Shown here: positions 2,913-31,614 of the stretch, in pieces | Layout of the letters: the number at the start of each line of letters is the position of its first letter | Numbering within the stretch: position 1 is the first letter of the stretch | Assembly (NCBI GenBank): GCA_034522055.1 | Contig: JAXHLS010000002.1 | Location: forward strand, 1,860,001-1,924,000 | Source of the DNA: Gammaproteobacteria bacterium | GTDB lineage: Bacteria > Pseudomonadota > Gammaproteobacteria > JAABTG01 | Length of the DNA: 64,000 nt | Direction of reading: 5' to 3' | Notes under the pieces: model-generated | Told to the model about the DNA's origin: nothing | Database searches by the model: none | The model's input: the letters and a program-made list of their open reading frames with translations, nothing else | Translations under genes and position numbers: made by a program

Positions 2913-2955
2913 GCATCAAGAGCCTATTAAATCATTGACTTAGGTGGATAAACAT

Positions 2956-4358: not shown

Positions 4359-4382
4359 TACTACACGTTAAGAGGAGAACTC

Positions 4383-6922: not shown

Positions 6923-7089
6923 TAACAGTGGGTTGAGATAATTAGCTGACATAAATTCGAACAAATTGCTAGACTTGGATCGATGATGTGCACGGCAATC
7001 GATCCAGTGGGATGGGCGGGCCATGCCGGCGTTCGCGAGGCGCCGGCATGGCGGCATGGCGTCCCGGGCCCGTGAATGGATCCCCGACC

Positions 7090-10790: not shown

Positions 10791-12431
10791 ATGGGGGACA
10801 TCATGAAAAGACTGGTATTGCTATTGGCGAGCGGCGCCCTGCTGGCGGGCTGCTCCTCGGCCCTGCCGCCGCCCCAGGAGCCCTCCGCGGGCCATATCCG
10901 GCCCGATCCCACTCCGGCGGCCCCGGCGGACATCCCCGACCCGGTGAGCCAGGTGCCCATCCTGCCGGAGCCCTCGCCGGCGCCCAAGCTGGAGACCTAT
11001 ACCGTGGTGGTGTCCGACGTGCCGGTGCGCGAGCTGCTGTTCGCCCTGGCCCGGGACGCCAGTCTCAACGTGGACATCCACCAGGACATCGCCGGCAGCG
11101 TCACCCTCAACGCCGTGGACCAGACCCTGCCCCAGATCCTGGAGCGCCTGTCCCGCCAGGTGGACCTGCGCTACGAGATGTCCGACAACCAACTCGTGGT
11201 GATGCCGGACAGTCCCTATCTCAAGACCTACAAGGTGGACTACGTGAATCTTGCCCGCACGAGTTCCAGTGACGTCCAGCTGAGTACCGAGATCGCGTCG
11301 GTGGGTGATTCGGGAAGCGGAAGTGGCGGTGGGGGCGGCGGGGGCCGGAGCGGCTCTTCCACCCAAGTGGACAACGAGTCCAATCATACCTTCTGGGAGA
11401 CCCTGGAGACGAATATCCAATCCATGCTCGGAAAGGGCTCCGGCGACGAAGAGATCGTCATCAGCAACCGCGAGTCCGGCGTCCTGACCGTGAGGGCCAC
11501 AGAGGTGCAGCATCGCCAGATCCAGGAATACATCGATCGTGTGGTCGCCAGTGTGAGCCGCCAAGTGCTCATCGAGGCCACTATCGTGGAAGTCGAGTTG
11601 AACGACGAGTACCAGTCGGGAGTGGATTGGTCGAAAGTGGCCATCGGTGAAGGCCTCACCGTGCTGTCCGGCGCCGCCGGCATCGCTTCTCCGGTGGGCG
11701 GTGCCCTGGCCACCACGGCCTTCGGGGCCGCCAACAACATTCCCAGCTTCCTGCTGGATTTCCAGAGCAAGGATGACCGCAACGACGGTATCACCTTCAC
11801 CGTCAGTCTGCTTAAGGAGTTCGGCAACGCCAAGGTACTGTCCAGCCCCAAACTGATGGCGCTGAACAATCAGACCGCCGTGCTCAAGGTTGTGGAGAAC
11901 ATCGTTTATTTCGAGATCGACCGCGACACTTCGCAGTCCGAGGCCTCCACCGTGACCACGGAGGAGTCCAACATCCTGACGGTGCCCGTGGGACTCGTGA
12001 TGCACGTGACTCCCCAGATCAGCGAGTCCGACAATGTCATCCTCAACGTGCGTCCGACCATATCCCGGGTCACTCAGTTCGTCGCCGACCCCCTGAACGC
12101 CAATAATCTGGTGCCCCAGGTGGCGGTCAGGGAGATGGATTCGGTGCTCAAGGTGCCAAGCGGGCGCATTGCGGTGCTGGGTGGGCTCATGCAGGATGAG
12201 GATCGCCGTACCAGCAGTGGCCTACCTGGGCTACCGGACAACGGTGGGCTTGGCGAGGCCTTCAAGCATCGCCGTAATCAGGTGACCAAGTCGGAGTTGG
12301 TGATCTTCATGCGCCCCCTGGTAGTGCATGAAGCCGATATCGAAAAGGACCTCCGGGAGTTCCGTCCCTTCCTGGAGCAGGCCTACCGGCTGCCGAGCGT
12401 TTCCTCGGCCACCACCGGCTCGCGGCCATGA
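10791..12431 (+). CDS. mshL: MSHA-type pilus secretin lipoprotein MshL
   Basis: About 546 residues. The N-terminus MKRLVLLLASGALLAGC is a lipoprotein signal with lipobox LLAGC; ATG 10791 or the in-frame ATG 10803 could start translation, and both have purine-rich sequences upstream. Residues 60-140 form the secretin/TonB short N-terminal domain (VPVRELLFALARDASLNVDI), followed by a Gly/Ser-rich linker and the C-terminal secretin domain (ESGVLTVRATEVQH, VLSSPKLMALNNQTAVLKV, LKVPSGRIAVLGGLMQ). It forms the outer-membrane ring through which the pilus passes. The next gene overlaps it by 4 nt. Confidence 0.94.
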   Translation: MGDIMKRLVLLLASGALLAGCSSALPPPQEPSAGHIRPDPTPAAPADIPDPVSQVPILPEPSPAPKLETYTVVVSDVPVRELLFALARDASLNVDIHQDIAGSVTLNAVDQTLPQILERLSRQVDLRYEMSDNQLVVMPDSPYLKTYKVDYVNLARTSSSDVQLSTEIASVGDSGSGSGGGGGGGRSGSSTQVDNESNHTFWETLETNIQSMLGKGSGDEEIVISNRESGVLTVRATEVQHRQIQEYIDRVVASVSRQVLIEATIVEVELNDEYQSGVDWSKVAIGEGLTVLSGAAGIASPVGGALATTAFGAANNIPSFLLDFQSKDDRNDGITFTVSLLKEFGNAKVLSSPKLMALNNQTAVLKVVENIVYFEIDRDTSQSEASTVTTEESNILTVPVGLVMHVTPQISESDNVILNVRPTISRVTQFVADPLNANNLVPQVAVREMDSVLKVPSGRIAVLGGLMQDEDRRTSSGLPGLPDNGGLGEAFKHRRNQVTKSELVIFMRPLVVHEADIEKDLREFRPFLEQAYRLPSVSSATTGSRP

Positions 12432-14170
12432 GCCTCCTCCTCGACGCCCTCAAGCAGGCCGAGAAGGCGAAGCTGGAGCGTACCGGCGAGGGCGCCAGCC
12501 CGGAGCGGTTGGAGATGGAGCCTCCGCCGGAGCGGCAGATGCCTGGCCCGGAACCCCATGAGGAGCCCGGCGAGGGACTCAGTATCGAACCTCTGGAAGA
12601 GGCCCCCGCGGGGGGGTGGCGTATGGAACACGACGATGACTCGAAGGGCCCGCGTTCCGGAGGGGACGAATCCCTGCGGCTGGAACGGCGGGAGGGGGGC
12701 AAGGAGGACAGCGACCGCCTGAACCTCGAGGAGCTGGCATCCCGGTTGACGGACTCCTCGGGCCGTTTCGCCCGGCCGGCGGCGGACGAGGACCTGACCC
12801 CGCCCGGGGATACCGACGAGTTCGACCCCCAGGCCGCCACCATGCCCTCCATGAGAAACGTGCAGGAGTCCATGCGCGATTTCTACGACGGCACCGGCAG
12901 GATGACCGGGGACGAGGTGACGTCGGCCATGGCCTCCCAGCGCGGCGGCGCCGACGCGACGGGCGCCACCACCCGGGTGTCCCAGCACGATGCCCTGAAC
13001 GTGTTCAAGGCCAAGGTGAAGGGCGCCGGCAGGAAGGACACGCCGCGCCGTACCTGGGTGCTGCTGGGGGTGGCGGGGGTGCTGCTGCTGGCCGGGGTGG
13101 GGGGCTGGTTGTGGGTGTCCATGAGCGGCCTGACCTCCGTCGCGCGCCCGCCCGTGGCCCGCGTCCCGTTGCCCGCCCCGGTGGCGGAGGCGCCCGCCAC
13201 GGCGGCGCGCCCGCCGGCGGCCCCGGCCACCACGCCGGCTACCGCAGCGGCACCCGCCGCCACGGCGTCGAGTGCCGCTCCGTCCTCCCCCCCGCAACCC
13301 GCGCCGGCTACCCCCGCATCGCCCATGACGCCCGAGCAGGCCCTGGCGGCGGCCACCACGCCCCAGGCGCCGGCCGCCGAGCCCGAGCCGCCGCGCACCG
13401 CCGCGGCGGACGGCGCCGCCGCCACGACGGATAGGGGAACGGACCGGGCCGCCGCCGCACGGGAGACCCCATCACGCACCGCCGCGGCGACGGAACAGCC
13501 GCGAACGGTGGCGCGGGCCGGGCGGCCCGCCGCCGATGAAGGCTCCCTGCCCATCCGCATCGACCGCAGCCCCGCCCGCGACCCCGAGTTCCGTCAGACC
13601 CGCGGCGCCTACGACATGTACCGCAGCGGTGACCTGGCCGGTGCCGAGTCGGCCTACCGGCAGGTGTTGAAGAAGAGCCCCCAGAACCGCGATGCCCTGC
13701 TGGGGCTGGCGGCGGTGGCCCTCAAGACCGGGCGGCCGCAGGAGGCCCAGGGCTACTACCTGCGCCTGCTGGCCCTGAACCCTAAGGACCGCCTGGCCCT
13801 CGCCGCGCTGACCTCCCTGCAGGCGGTACAGGACCCGGTGCAGACCGTCAGCCGCCTCAAGGTGCTGCTGGACAGGAACCCCGACGAGGGCTATCTGCAC
13901 TTCGCCCTGGGCAACGTCTATGCGGCCCAGCGGCAATGGCCGGCGGCCCAGCAGGCCTTTTTCAATGCCTACCGCATGGACAAGACCAACGGCGACTACG
14001 CCTTCAACCTCGCCATCAGCCTCGACCAGATGGGGCAGCATGCCGCGGCCCTGGATTATTACCGCGAGGCCCTGGCGCGCGCCGGCGAGCGGTCCGTGAG
14101 CTTCGACCGGGCGCGGGTCGTGCAGCGCATCGACGCCCTCGCCCCACCCGCGGTGGCACCGGCTTCATGA
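12428..14170 (+). CDS. mshN: MshN-like TPR membrane protein of the pilus system
   Basis: 580 residues; ATG overlaps the mshL stop by 4 nt. Starts MSLLLDALKQAEKAKLER, the usual opening of MshN/GspB-like proteins. The cytoplasmic N-terminal 200 residues are charged and low-complexity. One membrane segment lies near residue 207 (WVLLGVAGVLLLAGVGGWLW), then an Ala/Pro-rich periplasmic linker and, from about 390, several TPR repeats (MYRSGDLAGAESAYRQVLKK; LGLAAVALKTGRPQEAQGYY). TPR proteins at this position help assemble or stabilise the secretin. Identification rests on gene order and architecture; the sequence itself is poorly conserved. Confidence 0.85.
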   Translation: MSLLLDALKQAEKAKLERTGEGASPERLEMEPPPERQMPGPEPHEEPGEGLSIEPLEEAPAGGWRMEHDDDSKGPRSGGDESLRLERREGGKEDSDRLNLEELASRLTDSSGRFARPAADEDLTPPGDTDEFDPQAATMPSMRNVQESMRDFYDGTGRMTGDEVTSAMASQRGGADATGATTRVSQHDALNVFKAKVKGAGRKDTPRRTWVLLGVAGVLLLAGVGGWLWVSMSGLTSVARPPVARVPLPAPVAEAPATAARPPAAPATTPATAAAPAATASSAAPSSPPQPAPATPASPMTPEQALAAATTPQAPAAEPEPPRTAAADGAAATTDRGTDRAAAARETPSRTAAATEQPRTVARAGRPAADEGSLPIRIDRSPARDPEFRQTRGAYDMYRSGDLAGAESAYRQVLKKSPQNRDALLGLAAVALKTGRPQEAQGYYLRLLALNPKDRLALAALTSLQAVQDPVQTVSRLKVLLDRNPDEGYLHFALGNVYAAQRQWPAAQQAFFNAYRMDKTNGDYAFNLAISLDQMGQHAAALDYYREALARAGERSVSFDRARVVQRIDALAPPAVAPAS

Positions 14171-14171
14171 C

Positions 14172-15878
14172 ATGACCGTAACCCCAAGCCCCAGACGCAT
14201 CGGTGAGGTCCTGGTCGCCAAGGGACTGGTGAGCAAGGACCAGGTGGAGATCGCCCTCACCGAGCAGAAGCGCAGCAACCAGCATCTGGGCAAGATCCTG
14301 GTGCGCCTCGGCTTCGTCACCGAGGGTGTCATCCGCGATGTCGTGGGCGGCTCCCTGGGCCAGGCCTCCATCGACATCAGCAGGGTGGTGGTGGACAGCG
14401 ACGTGGTGCGCCTCATTCCCCGCGACGTGGCGCGGCGCTTCAACGTCCTCGCGGTGTCCCTGGAGGAGGATAAGAAGCTCCTCACCGTGGCCATGGGGGA
14501 CACCTTCAACGTGGTGGCCCTGGACAAGATCCGTACCCAGATCGGCACCGAATACCACATCCGGCCCCTGCTCGCCGGCGAGGCCGAGATCGAGAAGGCC
14601 ATTGACCAGTTCTACGGCTTCGAGCTGTCCGTGGACGGCATTCTGCTGGAGATCGAGACCGGCGAGATCGACTACCAGAGCCTCGAGGCCGAGACCGACG
14701 AGTACAGCCAGCCGGTGGTGCGCCTGGTGAACGCCCTGCTGTCCGATGCGGTGAAACGGGAGGCCTCGGACATCCACTTCGAGCCCGAGCAGGAATTCCT
14801 GCGCATCCGCTACCGCATCGACGGCGTGCTGCGCCAGATCCGCAGCCTGCACAAGAACTACTGGTCCGCCATCGCGGTGCGCATCAAGGTGATGTCGGGC
14901 ATGGACATCGCCGAGATGCGGGCGCCCCAGGACGGGCGTTTCTCCCTGTCCCTGTACGGGCGCGCCATCGACTTCCGGGTCTCCACCCTGCCCACCACCC
15001 ATGGCGAGAATATCGTGCTGCGGGTGCTGGACCGCCAGAAGGGCATCGTGCCTCTGGACGGCCTCGGCCTGCACAAAGAGGAGCTGTCCCTGCTGCGCCT
15101 GATGATCGCCCGGCCCGAGGGCATCATCCTGGTCACCGGCCCCACCGGCAGCGGCAAGACCACCACCCTCTATTCCCTGCTCATGCATCTGAACGAGGAG
15201 GGCGTGAACATCATGACCCTGGAGGACCCGGTGGAGTACCCCATGGGGCTCATTCGCCAGACCTCCGTCAACGACACCGTGAAGCTCGATTTCGCCAACG
15301 GCATCCGCACCCTGATGCGCCAGGACCCGGATATCATCCTGGTGGGCGAGATCCGGGACGAGGACACCGCCGAGATGGCGTTCCGGGCCGCCATGACCGG
15401 CCATCAGGTCTTCTCCACCCTGCATACCAATTCGGCGGTGGGGGCCGTGTCCAGGCTGCGGGATATCGGCATCAGTTCCGAGATCATGGCGGGCAATATC
15501 ATCGGCGTGGTGGCGCAACGCCTCATCCGCACCCTGTGCCCCGACTGCAAGGAGCCCTACGAGCCCACCAAGGTGGAGCGCCAGTTGCTGGGCCTGCACG
15601 TCGGGGATGCCGCGCCCATCCTCTATGCCGCCAAGGGCTGCGCCAAGTGCGACCATCAGGGCTACAAGGGGCGCATCGCCCTCATGGAGATCCTGCGCGT
15701 GGATGCGGAGATCGACGCGCTGCTGGCCCAGGGGGCCACCACGCGCGATATCGCCAGGCAGGCCCAGGAACGGCACTTCCGCTCGCTGGCCGATGACGGC
15801 ATCCGCCGCGTGATGGAGGGCCTCACCACCATCGACGAGATCTCGCGGGTGGTGGACCTGACGGACAGGCTGACCTGA
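14172..15878 (+). CDS. mshE: MSHA pilus extension ATPase MshE (GspE/PilB family)
   Basis: 568 residues. The MshEN-type N-terminal domain (RIGEVLVAKGLVSKDQVEIA) belongs to the family known to bind cyclic-di-GMP. Walker A GPTGSGKTTTLY lies near residue 322, the Asp box TLEDPVEY near 350, Walker B DPDIILVGEIRD near 390 and the His box MTGHQVFSTLHTNSA near 410. A C-terminal tetracysteine zinc motif is formed by CPDC and CAKC. It is the cytoplasmic hexameric motor that drives pilin polymerisation with MshG. The gene starts 2 nt after mshN and overlaps mshG by 1 nt. Confidence 0.96.
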   Translation: MTVTPSPRRIGEVLVAKGLVSKDQVEIALTEQKRSNQHLGKILVRLGFVTEGVIRDVVGGSLGQASIDISRVVVDSDVVRLIPRDVARRFNVLAVSLEEDKKLLTVAMGDTFNVVALDKIRTQIGTEYHIRPLLAGEAEIEKAIDQFYGFELSVDGILLEIETGEIDYQSLEAETDEYSQPVVRLVNALLSDAVKREASDIHFEPEQEFLRIRYRIDGVLRQIRSLHKNYWSAIAVRIKVMSGMDIAEMRAPQDGRFSLSLYGRAIDFRVSTLPTTHGENIVLRVLDRQKGIVPLDGLGLHKEELSLLRLMIARPEGIILVTGPTGSGKTTTLYSLLMHLNEEGVNIMTLEDPVEYPMGLIRQTSVNDTVKLDFANGIRTLMRQDPDIILVGEIRDEDTAEMAFRAAMTGHQVFSTLHTNSAVGAVSRLRDIGISSEIMAGNIIGVVAQRLIRTLCPDCKEPYEPTKVERQLLGLHVGDAAPILYAAKGCAKCDHQGYKGRIALMEILRVDAEIDALLAQGATTRDIARQAQERHFRSLADDGIRRVMEGLTTIDEISRVVDLTDRLT

Positions 15879-17083
15879 TGGCACTGTTCCAGTACAAGGC
15901 CATGAATCCCGCCGGGCGCATGGCCGGGGGCCAGATGGAGGCGGTGAACCCGGCGGACCTGGAGCTGCGCCTGGCGCGCATGGGGCTGGACCTGATCCGC
16001 TCCAAGGAGGTCAAACGCCGCACCCGCAGCGTGGGCCACAAGCGCATCACCCGCCAGGACCTCATCGGCTTCCTGTTCCACATGGAGCAGCTGTCCCAGG
16101 CCGGCGTACCCATCCTCGAGGCCCTGTCGGACCTGCGGGACACCATCGAGCACCCGCGTTTTCGCGAGGTCATCGCCTCCCTCATCGAGAGCATCGAGGG
16201 CGGGTCGCCCCTGTCGGAGGCCCTGGCGCAGCATCCCTCGGTGTTCGACGAGGTGATGGTGAACCTCATCCGCGCCGGCGAGACCAGCGGCGAGTTGTCG
16301 GCGGTGCTCGCCAACCTCACCGAGACCCTGAAGTGGCAGGACGAGCAGATACGGCAGATCAAGACCCTGATGATCTACCCCGCCGTCATCGCCGTGGTGA
16401 TGACGGCGGTGATCCTGTTCGTCATGACCTACATCGTGCCCCAGCTGGTCAAGGTCATCGAGAACATGGGCCAGACCCTGCCCCTGCACACCCGCATCCT
16501 CATCGCCACCTCGGATTTCTTCGTCGACTACTGGTATGTGGTCCTCGCCCTGCCGGTGCTGCTGTTCGCGGGGCTCAAGTACGCCGTGCGCGTCAGTCCC
16601 GCCGCCCGCTACACCGTGGACGACCTCAAGCTGCGGGTGTGGATCATCGGGCCGCTGCTCAAGAAGACCATACTGGCGCGCTTCGCCCACTTCTTCGGGC
16701 TCATGTACGGCTCCGGCATCACGGTGCTGGAGTGCGTGCGGGTGAGCGAGGAGATCGTCGGCAATGCCGCCATCAAGGAGGCCATTCACCGCGCCGGCGG
16801 CCGTATCGCCGACGGTGCCAGCATCAGCCAGAGCCTGGAGTATGCGGGCCTGTTCCCGCCCCTGGTGCTGCGCATGGTGCGCGTGGGCGAGAATACCGGC
16901 GCCCTGGACCGCTCCCTGGCCAATGTCAGCTATTTCTATTCCCGTGATGTCGAGGATGCCATCACCCGCCTGCAGAAGGCCATCGAGCCCACCATCACCC
17001 TGGTGCTGGGCGGCATCCTGGGCTGGGTGATGATTTCCGTGCTTGGACCCCTCTATGATCTCGTCGCTTCCGTCCAGATTTAA
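15878..17083 (+). CDS. mshG: MSHA pilus inner-membrane platform protein MshG (GspF/PilC family)
   Basis: 401 residues, normal for GspF/PilC. The family opening FQYKAMNPAGRMAGGQMEA is followed by two T2SSF domains, each with the FxxxLxxLxxAGVPI-type start (FLFHMEQLSQAGVPILEAL near residue 62; FAHFFGLMYGSGITVLECV near 270). Membrane segments lie near 165-190, 215-235 and 370-390. It anchors the ATPase MshE and the pilin base in the inner membrane. Start overlaps the mshE stop by 1 nt, so the two are translationally coupled. Confidence 0.96.
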   Translation: MALFQYKAMNPAGRMAGGQMEAVNPADLELRLARMGLDLIRSKEVKRRTRSVGHKRITRQDLIGFLFHMEQLSQAGVPILEALSDLRDTIEHPRFREVIASLIESIEGGSPLSEALAQHPSVFDEVMVNLIRAGETSGELSAVLANLTETLKWQDEQIRQIKTLMIYPAVIAVVMTAVILFVMTYIVPQLVKVIENMGQTLPLHTRILIATSDFFVDYWYVVLALPVLLFAGLKYAVRVSPAARYTVDDLKLRVWIIGPLLKKTILARFAHFFGLMYGSGITVLECVRVSEEIVGNAAIKEAIHRAGGRIADGASISQSLEYAGLFPPLVLRMVRVGENTGALDRSLANVSYFYSRDVEDAITRLQKAIEPTITLVLGGILGWVMISVLGPLYDLVASVQI

Positions 17084-18647
17084 TCGCGGCCCCAAGCGCG
17101 CCCTCTACGTGGCGGGCCACCAGCTCACCGCCTACGAGTGGCGGCGGGGCGGCCTGACGGAGGCCTTCATGTTCCAGCTCGGCGAGGAGGGGCTGTCGGA
17201 ATTCTCCTCTTACCTCAACGAGGCGCCCTCCATTCCCGTCTACATGGTGGTGGACGTGGTGGAGGAGGAATACCGGCGGGATACCGTGCCCCACGTGTCG
17301 GCCCGGGACCGCCGCGGCATGGTGGAGGGCCGCATCGCCCGTTACTTCCGTGACACGTCCTATCACACCGCCCGCTTCCAGGGGCGCGAGACGGTTGGCC
17401 GCAAGGACGACCGGGTACTCTACAGCGCCCTCACCAACCCCGGGCTGCTGACCCCGTGGGTGGATCGTATCATCCAGGCCAAGGTGCCCCTGGCCGGCAT
17501 CTACTCCCTGCCCCTGCTGTGCGAGACCCTGGTGCCCTATGTCGCGGGTGAGGACGGCCAGTCCCTGATCATGACCCTCCAGGGCTCCGGCAACCTGCGC
17601 CAGTGCTTCTTCAGCGGCAAGTACCTGAAGATGAGCCGCCTGGCCCACGTGCCCAGCAAGGAGCCTGCGGCGGTGGCCGATGCCATGCTGGACGAGGCCG
17701 AGAAACTGCGCCGCTATCTCAACAGCCTGCGGCTCCTGCCCCGCGACCGGCCCCTCAATGTGTATATGCTGACCCAGGGCCGCATCGCCGAGATCCTCCA
17801 TGCGCGGGCCCAGGACACCGACACCATGCACTGTGTGCTGGTGGAGATGTCCCGTATCGCCGATGGCATGGGCATGAATCCGGCCTTCGTGTCCCCCTAC
17901 GCCGACGCACTCTTCGCCCACCTGCTGTTGCGCCGCCCCCCCGCCAACCACTACGCCACGCCCCGGGAGCGCCGCTACAATACCCTGCGCTACGCCCGCA
18001 ACGGCATGACGGCAGCGACCATCGTGCTGGGGCTGGGGGCCGTGGCCTGGACTGGCATGAACGTGGTGACCGGCATGATCCTCAGCCAGCGCAGCGCGGC
18101 CTCCCAGCTGCAGACGGCCTACTATCAGCAGCGCTACGACGCGGCCCGCACCGGCCTGCCCGAGCTGCCCGCCGAGGCGGAGGAACTCAAGCGGGCCGTG
18201 GAAGCCGTGGCGACCCTGGAACAACACCGCACCACGCCGCTGGAGGCCATGGAGCTCATCAGCCTGGCCCTGGATGCCTTTCCCCGGCTGCGGGTGGAAC
18301 AGGTGGCGTGGGGTCAGGGTCCCGGACAACCGCCGGCGGAAGAGGTTACCGACAAGCGCCAGAGACGGTACCAGAAGAAGGACCAGCGCCCGGGCGACGA
18401 GCACGCGGTGCTGGATGGGCGCATAGACCCCTTCGACGGCGACTACCGGGCCGCCCTCGACATGCTCGAGGCATTCGCCGCCAACCTGCGGGGGCTCCAG
18501 GGGGTGGTGGAGGTCAGGCTGACCAAACTGCCCCTCAACCTCAGCCCCAATCAGGCCCTTTCGGGCAATGCCGTCGGCGACCGCGCCCGGGACGAGGCGG
18601 GTTTTTCGCTCATCGTGGTACTCGGAGAGCAAGATGGACAGGCATGA
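17055..18647 (+). CDS. Pilus assembly protein, PilM/PilN-like (MshI position)
   Basis: 530 residues from ATG 17055, which overlaps the mshG end by 29 nt. A roughly 300-residue N-terminal part resembles the actin-like cytoplasmic PilM/GspL fold (YVAGHQLTAYEWRRGGLTEA; SLIMTLQGSGNLRQCFFSG), though clear ATP-binding motifs are not visible. One membrane segment follows near 320-340 (MTAATIVLGLGAVAWTGMNVV), then a roughly 190-residue periplasmic part like PilN. The arrangement looks like PilM and PilN fused in one chain, matching the MshI slot of MSHA loci. Function is inferred from position and topology, not from a sequence signature. Confidence 0.7.
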   Translation: MISSLPSRFNRGPKRALYVAGHQLTAYEWRRGGLTEAFMFQLGEEGLSEFSSYLNEAPSIPVYMVVDVVEEEYRRDTVPHVSARDRRGMVEGRIARYFRDTSYHTARFQGRETVGRKDDRVLYSALTNPGLLTPWVDRIIQAKVPLAGIYSLPLLCETLVPYVAGEDGQSLIMTLQGSGNLRQCFFSGKYLKMSRLAHVPSKEPAAVADAMLDEAEKLRRYLNSLRLLPRDRPLNVYMLTQGRIAEILHARAQDTDTMHCVLVEMSRIADGMGMNPAFVSPYADALFAHLLLRRPPANHYATPRERRYNTLRYARNGMTAATIVLGLGAVAWTGMNVVTGMILSQRSAASQLQTAYYQQRYDAARTGLPELPAEAEELKRAVEAVATLEQHRTTPLEAMELISLALDAFPRLRVEQVAWGQGPGQPPAEEVTDKRQRRYQKKDQRPGDEHAVLDGRIDPFDGDYRAALDMLEAFAANLRGLQGVVEVRLTKLPLNLSPNQALSGNAVGDRARDEAGFSLIVVLGEQDGQA

Positions 18648-19239
18648 TATCGACTGGTCCGTGCTGCGGGGTGCCATCGTCATCCTGGTCATCACCCTGG
18701 CGGTGGCCAGCGCCATGGTGGTGGCCAGCCGTTATTTCAAGGCCGAGCAGGAGCAGGCCTTTAGCACCGAGCAGCGCCGGTTCCTGAACGCCAGCCGTAA
18801 ATACCTGTCGGTGGACGAGGAGGAGCGTCTCATCCGCGAGTACCTGCCGCGCTTCGAGGCGTTGAAGGCGGCGGGCCTCATCGGTGAGGAGCAGCGCCTG
18901 CAATGGCTCGAGACCCTGCGCCGCGTCAAGGAGGAGTTGCGGCTGCCCACGCTGCAGTACAGCATCTCCCCGCGCGGCGAGTACGAGCCGCCCGCAAAGC
19001 TCCCCAGGAGCGACTATGAGCCCTACGCCAGCGCCATGGAACTGACCGCCGGACTGGTCCACGAGACCGACCTGTTCAGGCTCTTCGACCGCCTGGAGAG
19101 AGACGCCAGCGGCAGTTTCAGCGTCGACGGCTGCGCCCTCAGCCGGCGCGGCCGGGATACGGCGCCCCCCCAGCCAGACCAGCCCAACCTGATGGCCAGT
19201 TGCCGCCTGCTGTGGATTACCCTCCGGAACCCCTCGTGA
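18634..19239 (+). CDS. Pilus assembly protein, PilO/MshJ-like
   Basis: 201 residues from ATG 18634, preceded by GGAGA and overlapping the previous gene by 14 nt. One N-terminal membrane segment (GAIVILVITLAVASAMVVAS), a short coiled-coil stretch (residues 30-85, rich in Glu/Arg/Lys) and a C-terminal periplasmic domain ending SCRLLWITL. This is the layout of PilO/MshJ inner-membrane alignment proteins. A longer in-frame reading from 18568 is unlikely because it would lie inside the upstream gene. No strong sequence signature; the call rests on order and topology. Confidence 0.65.
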   Translation: MDRHDIDWSVLRGAIVILVITLAVASAMVVASRYFKAEQEQAFSTEQRRFLNASRKYLSVDEEERLIREYLPRFEALKAAGLIGEEQRLQWLETLRRVKEELRLPTLQYSISPRGEYEPPAKLPRSDYEPYASAMELTAGLVHETDLFRLFDRLERDASGSFSVDGCALSRRGRDTAPPQPDQPNLMASCRLLWITLRNPS

Positions 19240-19255
19240 GGTGCAGGTGATTACC

Positions 19256-19783
19256 ATGGCCGCAAGGCATCCCCCCTTCTCCTGGCCCGGCGCCCTGGTG
19301 CTCGGCGTGCTCTGGGTCGCGGTCCTGGTGCCGGGAATGGCCCATGGCGAGGCCCTGGGGCGGCTGTTCTTCACCCCCGAGCAGCGCGCGGCCCTGGACG
19401 AGGAACGCTTCGCCCCGCCCCCGGAGCAGGCCCCGGAGCCCGAGGTGGCGGAAGAGCAACCGCCACCGGAGCCGCCGCCGCCACTGCGCTCCTTGCGCAT
19501 GGAGGGGCTGGTGGTGCGCAGCCACGGTCCCAACACCGCGTGGGTGGACGGCCGCCCGGTGCTGCGCAAGGGCACGACCGACGAAGGCGTGACCGTGGAC
19601 CCCACCAGCACCCGCGATGGCGGCGTGGCCGTGCGGGTGCGGGGCTCGGACACCACCGTGGACCTCAAACCCGGCCAGCGCTTCGACCCCGCCAGCGCCC
19701 GCGTCTCCGAACTCACGCCCGGCCCCTCCGAGACCGCGCCCGGGCTGGCGCCCCAGGGCCGCGCCGGCGACGCCGGGCCATGA
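19256..19783 (+). CDS. Secreted PilP/MshK-like pilus assembly protein
   Basis: 175 residues from ATG 19256; GTG 19241 in frame is the alternative. Signal peptide (GALVLGVLWVAVLVPGMAHG), a Glu/Pro-rich linker (residues 55-80), then a small beta domain with LRMEGLVVRSHGPNTAWVDG and VAVRVRGSDTTVDLKPGQRF. This matches PilP/MshK proteins, where a short periplasmic beta domain links the inner-membrane PilN/O complex to the secretin. Position after the PilO-like gene supports this. Sequence similarity to named families is weak. Confidence 0.65.
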   Translation: MAARHPPFSWPGALVLGVLWVAVLVPGMAHGEALGRLFFTPEQRAALDEERFAPPPEQAPEPEVAEEQPPPEPPPPLRSLRMEGLVVRSHGPNTAWVDGRPVLRKGTTDEGVTVDPTSTRDGGVAVRVRGSDTTVDLKPGQRFDPASARVSELTPGPSETAPGLAPQGRAGDAGP

Positions 19784-19826: not shown

Positions 19827-22547
19827 ATGCCGCAGCCCATATATTCCCGCTCCCCTTCACCGCCGGCCCCCCTGCCTCGCGGCCCCGCCGCGGCCCAGCG
19901 CGGCGCGGCCCTCATGGTGCTCCTGATCATCCTGGTGGTGGCCACCTCCGCCGTCATCCTCGCCCGGTTCGATCCTTCCATCCATCAACGGGCCCGGGAG
20001 ACGCAGACCTCCGAGGCCCTGGCGCGGGCGAAGGAGCTGCTGATGGGGTGGGCGGTTTCGAGTAACCGGAAGCCGGGAGAGTTGCCTTATCCAGATCGAG
20101 ACAACAATGATGGAAATTACGATGGAGAGGCGGACTGTTTTACTGGTGACGCAAATATTGGGCTGCTTATGGGCCGCTTCCCTTGGCGGGGGGAGGCGGG
20201 ATGTACCGGATCATTAATCATTCATGATGGCCAAGATATCACCGACGGCTACGGGGCACGGCTGTGGTACGCGGTGTCCCAGAACCTGGTCCGTAACCCC
20301 GGGCCGGGTGCAGCACCTCTGAATTCCAACCTGGTGGATCTCGATCCGCCACCCTTTCCCTGGCTCCAGGTGAGGGACGGCGAGGGCAACATCGTAAGCG
20401 ACCGCGTGGCCGCCGTCATCATCGCCCCCGGCCCCGCCCTGGAGGGTCAGGACCGCAGCGGCGCCACGCCGCCTATCGACGAATTTCTGGAGACCTTCGA
20501 TCAGGCCGGCGATACCGTGGGCAACATCGACAACGACGGCTGCCCCGATGTGGCGGCTGGCTGCGCTGATAGTCTCGGCGAGGACTTCTACATCCACCAG
20601 AGCGACGAGTTCAACGACCGCCTCATCTACATCACCATCGACGAGCTGATGCCCCGGGTGGAAAAGCGGGTGGCCGAACTGGTGGCGAGCGCACTCAGGA
20701 ACTATCAGAATGGTTATGGCCGATTTCCATGGCTGGCGGAGTTTCGGGAGCCACTGGCCCTGGAACCACGGATCCAGGGGACTGCGGGGAACACGAGCGC
20801 TGGTAACACCTTGAAGGATTCCTCCTACGACTTCGTGGCGGTAGGAGTCCAAGGGGGTGACTTGGTGCATAACGTCACCGATGGCTCCCTCGGCGTAGTG
20901 GATACCGTAGGGATCCCAGATAACCAGACGTTGACGGTGGGCGCGTTATCCGGAGGCGTAGGAAATACTTTCGCAGGTTCGGATTTCTATCAGATCCTGC
21001 TTCGTGGCCGTCCTGTTGCCGCCAATGCCACCATCGAGGGCACCGCCGACACGGGAACCGCCGGCGACGAGCTGAAGGAAACCGCGAGTAACCTGGTTGA
21101 ACTGGCGATACCACCGGGTAGCGTGTTGGAAAACCTGACAGGCGGCGGCGCGAGCTTGGCCAGCAGGGTCAGCTTCAGCGCCGGCACCAGCACCGTGGAA
21201 ATCGTTGGGGATATCGGTCTCACGGTGGGCAATAAGTACCGCTTCCGCGCGAGCTATGGCCGGGCCGACGCTGGCAGCGCGGGTGACACCCTAGTGGATG
21301 ACGAGGTGGATTTCGCGGACCTCCGTGTCCAGCAGGAGGATCCTATCATCAATCATTCAGATGGGTCGCTCGGTCTGGTGGCTACCGTAACCCTGCCGAA
21401 CCAGCTCATAGTCAGACACTTGTTGGGTGGCACCAGCGACGCTTTTGCGCCAGGTGATGGCTGGGAACTGGGGCGCCAGTTTTCCGTTGAGGGGACCCGT
21501 TTCGGGCTGTTGCCCGTGCATGCGGTGGGGCGGCCCTACATCAGTGCCTTCACCCTGGACTGGAACGTGACTGGTGGGATACTGGAACTCTGCTCGGGAG
21601 CAGCTACCCTCACGCTCGAGCGGCAGCACACCTTCCAGCTAAAGGATGCGGTGGAGTCCGGTTCGCGGTCGTTCCCCCCGGGGGCCTGCCAGTGGACCCA
21701 TCCCCGGGGGGTATACTGCGAAACGGTGGAGACCATCACCCCCTTCTCCCTGACCGTGACGGCCGATGAAGAGAGCCCGTCTGGATGCACGGTAGCCGGC
21801 ACCTTCACTGACGTCGGCGAGGTCACTGAGCGCACCTATCGTCTGTGGCTGCGTTTCAATGGCTCGGAGTTCGTCGTGGAGCCATCCGGTGACATCAGAA
21901 CGCGCAGCGTTTGCATCGGCTATGACCCCGTTTCTCCCTTTTGCGTGTCTGGCACCGAAGCCGATGTCACTCTCGATGGGCAGGTCGAGGGGCAATTAAC
22001 GGTGCAGGACTACGCCGGTGCATCGGAGGTGGGGAGGGGTGAGTGGACGATCAGCGGGACCTCCACCGGCTGGTCGGGGTGGATGCGCGTTTCCGGCCTG
22101 CGTCTGGATTTCATGCCCCAGACGGAGCTCGTCAACGAGGATATTGACGGTGACGGGGATGTGGACGAACAAGACGTCGTCGATCTTCCGCCATGGTTCT
22201 TCCAACAGGGCTGGGAACGGCTCGTGGCGGTGGCGATCTCCGATGACGAGGACCCCGACGGGGCCGGTAATTGCGCCGGCGCAGGAAACTGTTTGAATCT
22301 GGTTGATGAAAGCGGAACCGTGATACGGAATGATGTGGAGGCTTTAGTCTTGGTGGCCGGGCAGGCTCAAGCGAGTGTTGGTCCGGGCCCATTCCCTCAG
22401 GATCGAGCACAGGGAATCCAATGCAGTGCCGCTAACACCGTGGACTGCTACCTTGAAGGTGAAAATGCCGACACAGACGATGAATTCTTCTGGTTTGGAG
22501 TAGACCACGACGGTCTTAATGATGTGATGAGGATCGTAACGCCTTGA
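19827..22547 (+). CDS. Giant pilin-like (PilX-type) protein with internal repeats
   Basis: 906 residues from ATG 19827 (TTG 19800 is possible). The N-terminus has one membrane segment after RGAA (MVLLIILVVATSAVILARF), like PilX minor pilins, followed by a helix with ARAKELLMGWAVSSNRKPGE. Residues about 317-550 hold three diverged repeats of 73-87 residues, each opening G-x-A-x-x-x-x-A-G-(N/D)-x-L and the outer two sharing the word DGSLG. A Cys-rich beta region follows (about 590-720). NEDIDGDGDVDEQDV near 770 resembles a dockerin/EF-hand calcium loop. Base composition of the repeat section is less GC-rich than neighbours. Probably a surface-exposed tip or adhesive subunit of the pilus; no named family recognised. 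Confidence 0.75.
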   Translation: MPQPIYSRSPSPPAPLPRGPAAAQRGAALMVLLIILVVATSAVILARFDPSIHQRARETQTSEALARAKELLMGWAVSSNRKPGELPYPDRDNNDGNYDGEADCFTGDANIGLLMGRFPWRGEAGCTGSLIIHDGQDITDGYGARLWYAVSQNLVRNPGPGAAPLNSNLVDLDPPPFPWLQVRDGEGNIVSDRVAAVIIAPGPALEGQDRSGATPPIDEFLETFDQAGDTVGNIDNDGCPDVAAGCADSLGEDFYIHQSDEFNDRLIYITIDELMPRVEKRVAELVASALRNYQNGYGRFPWLAEFREPLALEPRIQGTAGNTSAGNTLKDSSYDFVAVGVQGGDLVHNVTDGSLGVVDTVGIPDNQTLTVGALSGGVGNTFAGSDFYQILLRGRPVAANATIEGTADTGTAGDELKETASNLVELAIPPGSVLENLTGGGASLASRVSFSAGTSTVEIVGDIGLTVGNKYRFRASYGRADAGSAGDTLVDDEVDFADLRVQQEDPIINHSDGSLGLVATVTLPNQLIVRHLLGGTSDAFAPGDGWELGRQFSVEGTRFGLLPVHAVGRPYISAFTLDWNVTGGILELCSGAATLTLERQHTFQLKDAVESGSRSFPPGACQWTHPRGVYCETVETITPFSLTVTADEESPSGCTVAGTFTDVGEVTERTYRLWLRFNGSEFVVEPSGDIRTRSVCIGYDPVSPFCVSGTEADVTLDGQVEGQLTVQDYAGASEVGRGEWTISGTSTGWSGWMRVSGLRLDFMPQTELVNEDIDGDGDVDEQDVVDLPPWFFQQGWERLVAVAISDDEDPDGAGNCAGAGNCLNLVDESGTVIRNDVEALVLVAGQAQASVGPGPFPQDRAQGIQCSAANTVDCYLEGENADTDDEFFWFGVDHDGLNDVMRIVTP
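20778..21480 (+). repeat. Three protein-level repeats in the giant pilin-like gene
   Basis: Units begin near 20778, 21039 and 21258. Shared words are TAGNTSAGNTLKD / TADTGTAGDELKE / RADAGSAGDTLVD at their starts and TDGSLGVVDTV / SDGSLGLVATV in units 1 and 3. They are clear in the protein but diverged in DNA, so the triplication is old. Confidence 0.75.
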
Positions 22548-23458
22548 AAGGTCTCTCATATAGCGGGCGAGCGGGCCGCCGTGGCTGTCATCGGGATCAG
22601 GGTAAGCAAACGGGCTTTACCCTCATCGAGCTGGCCGTGGTGGTGGTGGTCATCGGGCTGCTGCTGACGGGGATCCTGGTGCCCCTGTCGGTGCAAGTGG
22701 AGACTGCGAAGATCCAGGAGACCCAGCGCAAGCTGGCGGAGATCCGCAGCGCCCTCATCGGCTTTGCCCAGGTGAACGGCCGCCTGCCCTGTCCCGCGAC
22801 CCACGCCACCGATGGGGAGGAACTGGAGGCAGCGGGCGGGGCCGCAAGAACTTGCAACGATGGCGTGAAGTCCCTCCAGCACGGCTTCGTTCCCGCGGTG
22901 ACCCTTGGCGTCTCCGGCCCCTTCAACGGCGACAACCTGCTGGTGCTGGTGGATGCCTGGGGCAACCCCTATCGCTACAGCGTCACGAGATTCAATTTGG
23001 ATGCTGAGGAAGGGTGGGACTTCGTGGCCGATGGCGAGATGCGCCGGGTGGGCATGGAGAATCTGGAACCGGACCTGGAGGTGTGTTCAAGCGAGGGTCC
23101 GCCACCGGACGACGTTACGGGCACGGGCAGTGAGGTCACTCCCAATTGTAGTGACGGTGGCGCGCTTGCGCTGACCAGTCAGGCACCGGTGGTGTTCTAT
23201 TCCCTGGGGCCGGATGGCAGCAACATGCCCGGCTACGGCTTCTTCTCCACCTACCAGCTGGAAAACGCGGGAGAGTCGGCTGTCATCCCTTCCCTGCTGG
23301 GCGGTTACTGGATCGCGGAGGACGATATTTTCGTGGCCGGCCCGCGTCGCGGAGAGCCTGACACCGATGTGGCGCGGGCCTATTTCGATGACATCGTGGA
23401 ATGGATCTCGCCCGTGGTGCTCTACGAGCGCATGATCGCGGCCGGTCAGTTACCCTGA
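22544..23458 (+). CDS. Type IV prepilin-like protein
   Basis: 304 residues, TTG start at 22544 overlapping the previous stop by 4 nt; no ATG fits. The class III signal has a basic leader of about 24 residues (GRAGRRGCHRDQGKQTG), then cleavage before FTLIELAVVVVVIGLLLTGI with the conserved Glu5. The body contains GRLPCPATHATDG and DAWGNPYRYSVT, features of large MSHA/T2SS-associated pseudopilins, and a Cys-rich middle. It should be cut by a prepilin peptidase (not in this window) and enter the pilus or its tip. Translational coupling links it to the giant pilin-like gene. Confidence 0.88.
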   Translation: MKGLSYSGRAGRRGCHRDQGKQTGFTLIELAVVVVVIGLLLTGILVPLSVQVETAKIQETQRKLAEIRSALIGFAQVNGRLPCPATHATDGEELEAAGGAARTCNDGVKSLQHGFVPAVTLGVSGPFNGDNLLVLVDAWGNPYRYSVTRFNLDAEEGWDFVADGEMRRVGMENLEPDLEVCSSEGPPPDDVTGTGSEVTPNCSDGGALALTSQAPVVFYSLGPDGSNMPGYGFFSTYQLENAGESAVIPSLLGGYWIAEDDIFVAGPRRGEPDTDVARAYFDDIVEWISPVVLYERMIAAGQLP

Positions 23459-24171
23459 GGGGAGAGCGGCCTTCTGCGCCTGCGGGTAGCCGCCAGCAGC
23501 AGGGTGGCGGCCGAGCCTAGCAGCAGGAGTGCCGGTGGCAGGGGCACAGGTGTAAAGGCGAGGTTGTCCATCACGAAGCGTGGTGCGCTGCCGCCTTCGG
23601 CGGTGAACACCACCGAGTGCACCGGCCTGGTCCAGCCGGAGTTCTTGTTCAAGGACACCTGGATGGTCGAGAATGGCGCCTTGCCGGACGGGAACAGGTC
23701 GATGATGATGGGCCGGTTGACCGGTCGGCCTGCGGCATCGAAACCATCGATGGTTACGGTCAGCGCCGAGCTGAATATCTCCGGAATATCGATGGGTTCT
23801 CCGTCATCCGGGAAACTGTACAGTTCGAGGCCGTGTAAGAGAAATGGTGTTTTTGCTCCCTTAACCTCGACCTCGCTGTGTACCGTGTCGAATCTCTCGA
23901 GGTTGGTGAGATAGAACAGGTTGGCGGCGCCGTCAGCGGCAGGGCGCGCCTTGAAGAAGGAATTCACCTCGGCCAGAAACTCCGCGTACGGCTCCACGTA
24001 CCAGCCGTTGCTCCATTGGAGGCCGCCATGGGTTGGGGGCAGGGTAGCCCTCAGTTTGCCCTCAGGGATCTTGATGTCCTCGAAGCCCAGCACCGACGTC
24101 GCCGGGGCAAAGGCGGACCAGGCCATGAGGACGCAGAATGCTAGGGGCTTTACGTGGATGGTTGGTTGCAC
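23446..24171 (-). CDS. Secreted protein with PEP-CTERM-type (VPLP) sorting signal
   Basis: 241 residues. N-terminal signal peptide (PLAFCVLMAWSAFAPATS), then a beta-rich domain of unknown function (FEDIKIPEGKLRATLPPTHG; RFVMDNLAFTPV). The C-terminus VPLPPALLLLGSAATLLLAA followed by TRRRRR is the tripartite exosortase signal (VPLPA variant): short motif, membrane helix, Arg cluster. Exosortase should cleave it and release or anchor it at the surface; no exosortase is present here. It converges with the prepilin gene, overlapping 13 nt. A sigma54-like promoter lies 85 bp upstream. Confidence 0.85.
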   Translation of the reverse strand: MQPTIHVKPLAFCVLMAWSAFAPATSVLGFEDIKIPEGKLRATLPPTHGGLQWSNGWYVEPYAEFLAEVNSFFKARPAADGAANLFYLTNLERFDTVHSEVEVKGAKTPFLLHGLELYSFPDDGEPIDIPEIFSSALTVTIDGFDAAGRPVNRPIIIDLFPSGKAPFSTIQVSLNKNSGWTRPVHSVVFTAEGGSAPRFVMDNLAFTPVPLPPALLLLGSAATLLLAATRRRRRPLSPQGN

Positions 24172-24438: not shown

Positions 24439-26187
24439 TCATGCTCTCCGGCCGCTGGGGTCTCCGGTGCCCGGGTCGTTACTGTAAAGAATATCGACAT
24501 TGGGCCTGTCTGCGGGGCTCTTCAGGACGCCCATGCAGATCCGTCCCCGGGCATTGTGCAGGATGCGTAACTCGTAGCCTGCGGACTCCGCCAGGCGCGC
24601 GGTCTGGTAGAGCCCGATGCCAAGGCCGCTGGTGGAGTCGACGGGCTGGCGGAACAGGCGTTCGGCCACGGCGGGCGGTACGGGAGAGCCCGTGTCGCAT
24701 ACCGTCACGGTCAGCGGCGGGCCGGGGTCGAGGCTCACGGTGATGCGGATGTGGGGTTCGCTCTGGCGCTTGAAGCGGGCGTTCTCCAGCAGGTTCTCCA
24801 GGGCGGTGTCGAGGACATCCGCCCGTACCTCGGTAACGGGTATCTCGCCGGCGGCCTCGAAGCCCAGTCCCGCCTCCTCATGGCGCCGTTTCAGGCGCCG
24901 CCACCACTGGTCCAGGGCCAGGTGTTCGAGTGGTTCCTCGGTCTCGGGGGATTGCAGCTTGTCGAGGGCGCGGCCGAGGCGCTGCCCCAACTGGGGGAGC
25001 TGGCGGCGCACCAGGGCATAGGCCTGCTCGGCCCGCCGGCCCTCGGTGTGCTCCATGGCCATGGTCAGGGTCTGCAGGGACTGCAGCAGGTTCTTGATGT
25101 CATGGGTCACCCGGGCCCCCGTCTCGTATACCGCCTGCAGGTGGGCCCGGCTGCCCAGCTCCTGCTGGGAGCGCTTGGCGGTATAGAAGTAATCGATCAC
25201 CTGGATCAGCAGCCGGCTGTGGAGCAGCAGGGTGGCGCCGGGGGCGGCCAGGGTGTAGACGGTCACCTCCAGGGTGTCGCCCTGGACCCGGTTGGCGTGG
25301 GGGGTCTCCCGGCCCACCAGCCCGGATTGCTCGCGTGTCTCCCACCGGGTTCCCTCCACCCAGGGCAGGTCGCCGAACTGGGCCATGGCGTTCTTCAGGA
25401 AGGCATCCGGGGCGTCGTGCCTCTGGGCCAGTTGGGACAGTCCGGTGAGCCACTCCTCGAAGGGGGTGCCCATATTCAGTACATAACCGGACCACAGTTG
25501 GGACAGGCCGGAGAAGCCGGGGTGGGGGTCCAGCAGCCAGCTGATGGCGAGCAGGAACAGCGCGATGAAGATCAGGTTCTGGAACAGGGCCGTGGGGTAG
25601 GACAGCTCGGTGGAGTACATCACCAGCAAGCTGCCCAGGGCCAGCAGGGCGGTGAGGGAGGACAGGGTGATGGCGTGGAGGAAATCCACGCTGTGGAGCC
25701 GTGGGCGGGGGTCGTGGTGCACCGGCAGCACCAGCACCAGCAACGCCGGCACCATGAGGCCGTAGTAGAACAGTATCCCGGTAAAGTCGTCGGTGGGCAC
25801 ATCGAACGTGGGCACCACGCAGCCGATGAGGAATTCGCAAATCAGCACCACCAGGGTGGTGAGGTAGACGAAGCGTTCGCGGCGGTTGACGAACAGCACG
25901 CGGCCACCGATGAGGCCGATGAGCAGCAGCATCCAGATGAACACGAACCACCAGTTGAGCCAGACGACGAAGGCCACCGTCAGCAGCACGAAGACGGTCG
26001 AGGTGCCGCGGTCCAGGCGCCGGTCACTGCGCCACAGCGGTTGCCAGATGAGGAACAGCCCCAGGTGGGCCAGCATCATGGAGCGTGACAGGGCACTCCC
26101 GAAGTCCCCCCACAGGGCGGCATGGAGCAGCAACAGCATGAGCCCCAGCAGCAGGTTCTCGCGCATCTCCCGCGGCCTGGCGAACAT
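24439..26187 (-). CDS. Membrane sensor histidine kinase (PrsK/PilS-like)
   Basis: About 582 residues if started at ATG 26187; ATG 26166 is equally possible. The N-terminal 210 residues are a polytopic membrane domain of roughly 7-8 helices (LLLGLMLLLLHAALWG; VFVLLTVAFVVWLNWWFVFI). A roughly 120-residue linker precedes the H-box ARVTHDIKNLLQS with the phospho-accepting His near 362; HDIKN is the PrsK-style box. The catalytic domain has N box LENLLENARF, G1 VCDTGSPVP and G2 GLGIGLYQT. No response regulator is adjacent; the PrsR-like regulator at 7090-8511, also unpaired, is the obvious candidate (inference). Confidence 0.9.
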   Translation of the reverse strand: MFARPREMRENLLLGLMLLLLHAALWGDFGSALSRSMMLAHLGLFLIWQPLWRSDRRLDRGTSTVFVLLTVAFVVWLNWWFVFIWMLLLIGLIGGRVLFVNRRERFVYLTTLVVLICEFLIGCVVPTFDVPTDDFTGILFYYGLMVPALLVLVLPVHHDPRPRLHSVDFLHAITLSSLTALLALGSLLVMYSTELSYPTALFQNLIFIALFLLAISWLLDPHPGFSGLSQLWSGYVLNMGTPFEEWLTGLSQLAQRHDAPDAFLKNAMAQFGDLPWVEGTRWETREQSGLVGRETPHANRVQGDTLEVTVYTLAAPGATLLLHSRLLIQVIDYFYTAKRSQQELGSRAHLQAVYETGARVTHDIKNLLQSLQTLTMAMEHTEGRRAEQAYALVRRQLPQLGQRLGRALDKLQSPETEEPLEHLALDQWWRRLKRRHEEAGLGFEAAGEIPVTEVRADVLDTALENLLENARFKRQSEPHIRITVSLDPGPPLTVTVCDTGSPVPPAVAERLFRQPVDSTSGLGIGLYQTARLAESAGYELRILHNARGRICMGVLKSPADRPNVDILYSNDPGTGDPSGRRA

Positions 26188-26629
26188 GCCGCGACGGAAG
26201 TAGGAAAGGGAAATGGGGCTGTTCACGCCGAGTGGGTGGTCACTTTTCTCTCCCAGAGGCACGGAGGCACAAAGGAGAAGCAATACTAAGGATACAAGCT
26301 GCCCTGAGCGAACCCCTGGGGGTGAAGGGCATTTTGGCGATGCAATCGACGATCATCGCTTCTGCCTCATTCTCTTTCATCTCCGTGCCTCTGTGAGAAA
26401 ATATTTATTCTCTCACGGAGGTACAGAGGAATGGGTAGGTTGGGGTTCGTCCCTCATCCCAACCTACCGGCCCTGCCCCCATCACCAACGCGACAGGAAC
26501 CGGCGTCCTAAATTTCCGTTTGGAGCCAACAGGTCGGCGTATCCAGCTGTCGGATAAATTTACAGTCACGCGGGCATCATGCCCGAATACCGTAATTAAC
26601 CCATTGATTCATATACATATATATAAGTA
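26188..26629. repeat. Repeat-rich intergenic region with hairpins
   Basis: No convincing gene. TCTCCGTGCCTCTGTGAGA near 26381 and its inverted relative TCTCACGGAGGTACAGAGG near 26412 form a long imperfect hairpin; the same words recur at 28220-28245. GGTAGGTTGGG near 26434-26444 and CCCAACCTACC near 26458-26468 form a perfect 11-bp hairpin of a second repeat family, also seen at 28121-28203. Downstream of the repeats the sequence becomes AT-rich towards the 26630 promoter. Confidence 0.75.
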
Positions 26630-26645: not shown

Positions 26646-26705
26646 TAATTGCAGTATCGGTGGCTTCGCCGTAGCCCATTTAAACAAAGTCCGGAGATTC
26701 GACCC

Positions 26706-27539
26706 ATGACAACAAAACCATACCTTTTTGCCCTGGCATTGACCTTGACCTTTCCCGCCGGGGCGTACGCCACCGCTATTGAGAGCGGCTTCGACGGCAA
26801 TACGCTTGCCGCCAATGACGACGGGTCGACCGGGCTCGTTGGTATCGGGTTTGATGCCAATTTTTTTGGAGTGACATCCAATCAACTCTTCGTAAACAAT
26901 AACGGTAACGTCACTTTCGACGCTTCACTTGGGACGTTTACCCCCTTCGATCTGACCTTCACGAGCCGCCAGATCATCGCCCCGTTTTTCGCGGACGTCG
27001 ACACGCGGAGCGCAGGCGCCCCGGTCACCTACGGCACGGGGTCTTTCGGCGGGCGCAATGCCTTCGGCGTGAACTGGATCGATGTCGATTATTTTGCCAG
27101 TAGCACAACCCAAACGAATCGCAACAGCTTCCAGTTGATCCTGGTGGATCGCTCCGACATCGCCGCGGGGGATTTCGACTTCATCTTCAACTACGACCAG
27201 ATCCAGTGGGAGACGGGCGAGGCCAGTGGTGGGGATACAGATGGCCTCGGTGGCGATTCGGCCCGGGTCGGTTTCTCCAACGGCAGCGGTGATCCGGGTA
27301 CCTTCTTCGAACTGGCCGGCTCGGCGGTGAACGGGGCCTTTCTGGATGGCGGTCCCAACGCCCTCGTCTCCAACCGTTTGAACAGTGATGTCGATGGCCG
27401 CTATATCTTCAGCGCCCGCAGCGGTGCGGTGGTGGACCCGACGCCCGTCCCGACGCCCCCCACCGTCGCCCTGTTCGGCCTCGGCCTGGGGCTGGTCTCC
27501 CTGGTGGTCCAGCGCCGGCGCGCCGCCCGCCGGGCCTGA
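26706..27539 (+). CDS. Secreted nidogen-like (NIDO) domain protein with PEP-CTERM-type tail
   Basis: 277 residues from ATG 26706. Signal peptide (KPYLFALALTLTFPAGAYA). The domain from about residue 45 to 225 has NIDO features: FFGVTSNQLFVNNNGNVTFD, IIAPFFADVDTR, RNAFGVNWIDVDYF, FQLILVDR, DFDFIFNYDQIQWE. The tail PTPVPTPPTVALFGLGLGLV and then QRRRAARRA has the helix and Arg cluster of PEP-CTERM proteins. Such proteins are exported, processed by exosortase and associated with exopolysaccharide or flocs. A sigma54-like promoter precedes it and an intrinsic terminator follows, so it is a monocistronic unit. Confidence 0.88.
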   Translation: MTTKPYLFALALTLTFPAGAYATAIESGFDGNTLAANDDGSTGLVGIGFDANFFGVTSNQLFVNNNGNVTFDASLGTFTPFDLTFTSRQIIAPFFADVDTRSAGAPVTYGTGSFGGRNAFGVNWIDVDYFASSTTQTNRNSFQLILVDRSDIAAGDFDFIFNYDQIQWETGEASGGDTDGLGGDSARVGFSNGSGDPGTFFELAGSAVNGAFLDGGPNALVSNRLNSDVDGRYIFSARSGAVVDPTPVPTPPTVALFGLGLGLVSLVVQRRRAARRA

Positions 27540-31263: not shown

Positions 31264-31614
31264 GGCGTGCACCAAAATCCCTGGTGGTCCGTCCCGGCCG
31301 CCCCTGCCTCGCGCCGGCGGCGGTATGAGATAAGGAACCTCAAGCCTGGCATGTTATTTGAATAACTATTAACGCGAAAGCCGCGAAGCCCGATCTCCCG
31401 GTCTCCCGCGGGGACAAATCCGTCGGGAACGGATCTGAACGCGCCTCGGCGCGGCCCGCAAGGCGAAGGGCAGGATGCCCGGACTTATAGGGACGGGGTG
31501 AGGGAACGAATAGGCCGATACGCGCTCCTCCTTCATCAACTCGGGCGGTGCGTATAGCTATGAGAGGCCATGAGAGTTAGAGCGGAAGTATTTTCCATAT
31601 CACGGAGTTTAGCC
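31264..31614. other. Divergent intergenic region cyclase / prepilin
   Basis: About 350 bp, no gene. A degenerate repeat arm AACGCGAAAGCCGCGAAG lies near 31371. TGGCATGTTATTTGAA at 31347-31362 resembles a sigma54 promoter but lacks the -12 GC. GGAG at 31602-31605 is the prepilin ribosome-binding site. Confidence 0.4.

Follow-up and report, generated by a model that had tools for sequence, protein, structure and literature searches.

The 64,000-nucleotide stretch of gammaproteobacterial DNA analysed here (the window) encodes a 906-aa protein that is probably a modular tip pilin of an MSHA-type (T4eP-like) system, lacking Glu5 and displaying barrels of the phage-tail type that possibly bind glycans. 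Sequence comparison assigns this protein to a widespread, unnamed gammaproteobacterial family. A reading made from the sequence alone had proposed an adhesive, calcium-stabilised pilus tip; our results support that interpretation in part, and add three features that it had missed: an internal duplication, a widespread repeat-free family, and phage relatives of the repeat.

Gene and domain layout

The open reading frame at 19827-22547 (+) stays open upstream of the chosen start; the MPQ start and the leader are kept in the nearest relative, the frame L017 of a sister genome. Reading from the N-terminus, a type III-like leader (residues 1-26; 19827-19904) ends in Gly26, the predicted prepilin peptidase site, and is followed by the mature hydrophobic segment and alpha1 (residues 27-78; 19905-20060), with Val rather than Glu at position 5. 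Globular domain 1 (residues 79-311; 20061-20759) bears an LPxPDxDxDG loop and the motifs DGxGxRLWYAVS and AVIIAPGxxLxGQxR. Then come three barrel repeats: R1 (residues 318-390; 20778-20996), R2 (residues 405-474; 21039-21248), which is the most diverged of the three, and R3 (residues 478-548; 21258-21470). A Cys-containing beta-rich region (residues 556-770; 21492-22136), which longer repeat-free family members also have, precedes the EF-hand/dockerin-like loop DIDGDGDVDEQD (residues 772-783; 22140-22175). Globular domain 2 (residues 784-906; 22176-22544) completes the protein and is homologous to domain 1 (hhalign E 1.8e-16, probability 98.7). All of these features lie on the + strand. Six Cys (589, 621, 631, 654, 696 and 706) fall within the predicted beta region (559-760), as the earlier description of a Cys-rich beta region had it.

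The TGA stop of this gene overlaps the likely TTG start of a large GFTLIEL prepilin (22544-23458, +) in the sequence CCTTGA. The identical overlap is kept in L017, which supports the translational coupling that had been suggested for the two genes.

Scans of the 906-aa protein against Pfam (checked to E 1), NCBIfam and PHROGs gave nothing above cut-off, NCBIfam offering only GspH at E 0.11; the sequence-only reading was right, as far as Pfam and NCBIfam go, in placing the protein in no named family.

A pilin-like family without Glu5

The relatives search yielded homologues of both protein ends, with the middle absent. A contig search with the single 906-aa protein found nothing beyond the sister genome, which is a Thiotrichales MAG; a profile of 11 family sequences found members in 64 of the 274 genomes sampled from the class. 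Members lie in MSHA-type pilus clusters, adjoined by a large prepilin, and the basic form of the family consists of the two homologous globular domains with zero repeats, at about 400-650 aa. Literature searches found no paper describing the family or a domain common to pilins and phages.

The pilin-like N-terminus proposed from the sequence is borne out by the family: Gly26 is invariant and followed by a hydrophobic stretch in 30/30 aligned members. Homologues without the N-terminal pilin helix would have refuted the sequence-only reading; the homologues retain the pilin-type segment. Mature position 5 is V, A, L, I or T, and Glu in none of the 30. The Pfam N_methyl model (PF07963) does not match the 906-aa protein at E up to 1. 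Since the standard N_methyl motif includes Glu5, which is absent also from GspK/PilX-type pilins, this missing match is not decisive for pilin membership. It does mean that an InterPro survey of modular pilins, which required IPR012902, would have passed over the family (PMC8179133). This is a conserved, undescribed family of probable tip pilins, of a kind that motif-based pilin surveys miss.

According to a review of type 4 filaments, a subunit without Glu5 caps the tip complex (PMC10191384). The tip position is plausible for the 906-aa protein, as judged from its sequence and setting, given that every aligned member lacks Glu5 and that the gene belongs to a pilus cluster.

In some family members the N-terminus is joined to very different large C-terminal parts, in proteins of up to 2621 aa. 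The longest of these (L223:807-8669, -, in genome G112) joins the family N-terminal domain to a very long C-terminal part that has no match in Pfam. G112 also encodes an 865-aa relative, and another genome (G228) one of 1154 aa.

Barrel repeats and their placement

The repeats of the 906-aa protein were found by a profile that was seeded from other family proteins and built by iteration from homologues; it matches residues 318-390 (i-E 4e-23), 405-458 (1e-10, extended to about 474 for R2) and 478-547 (3e-22). In pairwise comparison, R1/R3 and R1/R2 beat 2000/2000 shuffles, while R2/R3 is marginal taken alone, one of 2000 shuffles reaching its score. The profile thereby confirms the three repeats of the sequence-only reading, but the 73-87 residues that it gave for them are the spacing of repeat starts (87 and 73); the units measure about 70 aa. 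Repetition among R1-R3 is not detectable at the DNA level, so these repeats are old. The 1291-aa frame of the sister genome carries seven units, of which r5 and r6 are nearly identical, so duplication of repeats is still ongoing. Further units occur in L054, L055, L056, L058, L061 and L067.

The main insertion sites are (i) after the YPWLxPF segment and before the GxLPxH segment, (ii) the Cys loop, and (iii) immediately ahead of the PxW motif in domain 2. Proteins from other families have repeats at the same site, and further members have none. Some are nested, a complete repeat lying inside another (L056 residues 600-829, L067 residues 635-792, L061 residues 608-760); in these cases the host repeat is interrupted at its hairpin turn (profile position ~38), as placed from the single-repeat model.

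On the domain-1 tree the repeat carriers do not form one group, the best tree requiring 5 changes, at least 2 of them forced by well-supported branches; hence repeats have probably been gained, lost or exchanged on more than one occasion. A tree of the repeats resolves few groupings and gives no firm orthology for individual repeats. L056 and L067, which belong to the same GTDB family, have a common repeat layout including the nested copy, and their N-terminal domains stand apart on the domain-1 tree, a pattern that hints at exchange of N-terminal domains.

The repeat was found in 8 genomes of the class sample, within this pilin family in 7/8 and within a phage-like 593-aa protein in the eighth; in the phylum sample it was found in its own genome only. 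A DUF473 hit to one repeat (E 0.003, below cut-off) was taken as chance.

Predicted structure of the repeat

AlphaFold modelled the full protein at mean pLDDT 75 and pTM 0.75. The model begins with a long helix at the N-terminus and has three beta modules besides two more beta-rich parts; helices are predicted at residues 22-47 and 50-78. A prediction without repeated domains would have refuted the sequence-only reading; the repeats are predicted to fold as domains. A single repeat, modelled with 36 sequences, is a predicted beta barrel at pLDDT 97. Among solved structures it comes closest to the tailspike depolymerase 24qj (Z 8.9 and rmsd 2.6 over 74 aligned residues), and then to residues 169-250 of the GTA chain 6tba_7A (Z 7.8, rmsd 2.4, 75 aligned), so that it fits a six-stranded barrel fold with Z 7.8-8.9 over 74-75 residues. 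From its matching residue range and length, 6tba chain 7A would be the GTA hub protein, whose residues 168-249 have been named an oligosaccharide-binding domain by similarity to the insertion domain of LKA1 gp49 (PMC7296036). Chains of the lambda tail tip and the JBD30 baseplate are the next solved neighbours. The resemblance is a modest one: barrels of F1/V1-ATPases score Z 6-7 too, so the fold alone is no proof of glycan binding. In a library of predicted viral structures, the best match to the repeat has TM 0.76 and 31% identity. Foldseek with the full-length model gave no match at E < 0.001, and structure-match lists for globular domain 1 against solved pilins were dominated by the barrel region.

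The repeats thus resemble the barrels of phage tailspikes and hubs (LKA1 gp49, KP34gp57, the RcGTA hub) in size, in fold class and in their insertion into other domains. They differ in standing in tandem, in a bacterial pilus protein, and in having no significant sequence match to solved structures.

Phage relatives of the repeat

When viral contigs were scanned with the central motif of the repeat as a pattern, at least 80 loci were returned. Proteins of uncultivated phages are matched by the repeat profile beyond this motif, with a best i-E of 4e-19 among the matches listed. Two controls bear on the part played by the motif: once the searched motif was masked, matches as low as E ~1e-10 persisted, and decoys in which the motif was kept and the flanks shuffled never passed 25 bits (0/81), while at least 80 real proteins did. 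Among the matches listed, no more than about ten viral proteins stay secure once the motif is disregarded; the others lean on it. One viral carrier matches SU10_adaptor and has genes for a capsid and a laminin-G protein nearby, and another lies near portal and terminase genes. No relative came up when viral contigs were scanned with a single phage copy. In tblastn, cultured phages matched neither the module nor the carrier proteins, so the phage link rests on uncultivated viral contigs.

With a pilin part and a domain that is not pilus-specific, being common to virion-region proteins of phages, the 906-aa protein qualifies as a modular pilin as the survey cited above uses the term (PMC8179133). 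PilB and PilC of Streptococcus sanguinis are modular pilins as well, PilB with one C-terminal vWA domain (PMC8179133), and the likeness extends to extra domains that a pilin has acquired and probably displays at the pilus tip. Unlike PilB, the present family inserts from zero to about seven domains in internal loops of a duplicated scaffold. What is new is the unnamed scaffold, the insertion into loops as opposed to grafting at a terminus, and a module that phages share and that is undescribed. This small barrel domain, for which Pfam has no model, connects pilus tips and phage particles. Tentatively, and with somewhat less confidence than we give the tip function, we propose that a phage virion barrel was taken into, or is shared with, the tip pilin and spreads as a plug-in, returning to the same few loops, multiplying in tandem and inserting into itself at the hairpin turn, such that pilus tip and phage tails would use the same recognition module.

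A possible function at the pilus tip

The tip function that we favour would operate as follows. Prepilin peptidase would cleave after Gly26, giving a mature protein without Glu5, the residue that docks onto the subunit above; such a protein could only cap the filament. Assembly would start at the tip, with the 906-aa protein and the coupled large prepilin together. The two homologous globular domains would be the conserved tip scaffold, into whose exposed loops some lineages have presumably inserted the six-stranded beta barrels of ~70 residues, otherwise a phage virion module. Three tandem barrels would then project from the tip, most likely as multivalent, low-affinity binders of a polysaccharide or other surface ligand. 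The adhesive role of the barrels is suggested by the resemblance of the predicted fold to phage barrels. If the barrels do bind glycans, many environmental Gammaproteobacteria would have a concrete candidate adhesin at the tip of their MSHA-type pili, and a change in copy number would be a simple means of tuning adhesion. The module, being small and predicted with high confidence, is testable alone.

A less likely alternative, to which we would give less than half as much credence, is that the barrels are passive and merely space or stiffen the tip, making it longer or more stable, with the binding site in domain 2 or in the Cys region. Their variable copy number, and the unchanged gene order of repeat-free members, would fit such a role. 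So would the acceptance of repeats within the hairpin turn of other repeats (L056, L067, L061), which suggests tolerance over a fixed binding site. The LKA1 paper grants its own barrel no more than a possible part in binding the substrate, and describes a similar barrel of phage P22 as structural; the P22 barrel stabilises the capsid (PMC5701251). Against passive barrels, several of the solved structural neighbours belong to receptor-binding or glycan-handling parts of phages.

The MSHA-type pilus cluster

The genes upstream of the 906-aa gene, all on the + strand, encode an MshM/ExeA-like ATPase (8537-10543), an MshL-type secretin (10791-12431), a TPR protein placed in the MshN position by Pfam and gene order (12428-14170), an extension ATPase with an MshEN domain (14172-15878; Pfam E 3.1e-130) and a platform protein (T2SSF; 15878-17083; Pfam E 1.2e-51). 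Conserved gene order identifies the next three as occupying the positions of MshI/GspL (17043-18647), MshJ/PilO (18568-19239) and MshK (19241-19783). The order mshM-L-N-E-G-I-J-K, 906-aa-type gene, large prepilin is conserved in several families of relatives. As for membership of the MSHA class, the MshE-type ATPase, the MshG platform and the TPR protein in the MshN position are present, in order; the secretin barely clears the MshL cut-off of 250.2, scoring 251.9 bits in the whole-genome search and 249.4 with another frame. As regards the MshA major pilin and the MshB/C/D/O/P/Q set, a single prepilin adjoins the 906-aa gene and another lies at 31570; N_methyl genes without an assignment occur elsewhere in the genome, which also encodes a prepilin peptidase (genome search). 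Compared with Vibrio cholerae MSHA, the cluster agrees in its secretin, over the curated MshL cut-off, and in the M-L-N-E-G-I-J-K positions; it differs in its pilin genes, namely the modular tip protein and, directly downstream, one large prepilin.

That the machinery is instead a secretion-type pseudopilus, with the protein a GspK-like tip handling a secreted substrate, seems to us improbable. GspK, like the 906-aa protein, lacks Glu5. GspK is also modular (PMC8179133), and the present protein shares with it and other non-Glu5 tip (pseudo)pilins a large size, an insertion in the pilin body and an expected place as tip cap. The NCBIfam scores of the ATPase and platform protein come near GspE and GspF, yet remain below cut-off. 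The secretin score and the MSHA-like gene order, in which a TPR gene stands where MshN would be, speak against a pseudopilus, and the 906-aa protein has no sequence match to GspK models.

Candidate metal loops

The DxDGDGDVDxxD loop of the sequence-only reading is present as DIDGDGDVDEQD and fits the pattern DxDxDGxhxxxD/E; still, the least probable of the readings is the one that had it bind calcium and so stabilise an adhesive tip, as none of the other 29 aligned members was found to have a dockerin-like loop there (L054 and L055 have barrels at this site), confidence of the structure model is low at the loop, and Pfam gives neither a dockerin nor an EF-hand match. With the loop seen at its site in this protein only, calcium is not central to our account. 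Dockerin membership was rejected on a single loop and no Pfam Dockerin match. The LPxPDxDxDG loop of domain 1, which is common in the family, appears from sequence conservation to be a better candidate metal loop.

Neighbouring genes

The prepilin at 31570 (31570-32361, +) lies 8 kb downstream and is an N_methyl protein whose homologues are encoded close to the cluster in several relatives; it is a possible major pilin. The cluster is preceded by a gene for a sigma-54 response regulator (6988-8511, +) and followed by one for a PrsK-like histidine kinase (24439-26283, -). They may regulate the pilus cluster, since homologues of the kinase adjoin it in relatives. Directly after the large prepilin lies a gene for a PEP-CTERM protein (23446-24171, -), and a NIDO-domain protein (26649-27539, +) is also encoded near the cluster. 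Immediately upstream of the pilus cluster, genes for MetK, adenosylhomocysteinase and methylenetetrahydrofolate reductase stand in a row (2944-6922, +). Farther downstream, two very long open frames of 1413 and 1313 aa (39347-43588, - and 39494-43435, +) overlap on opposite strands.
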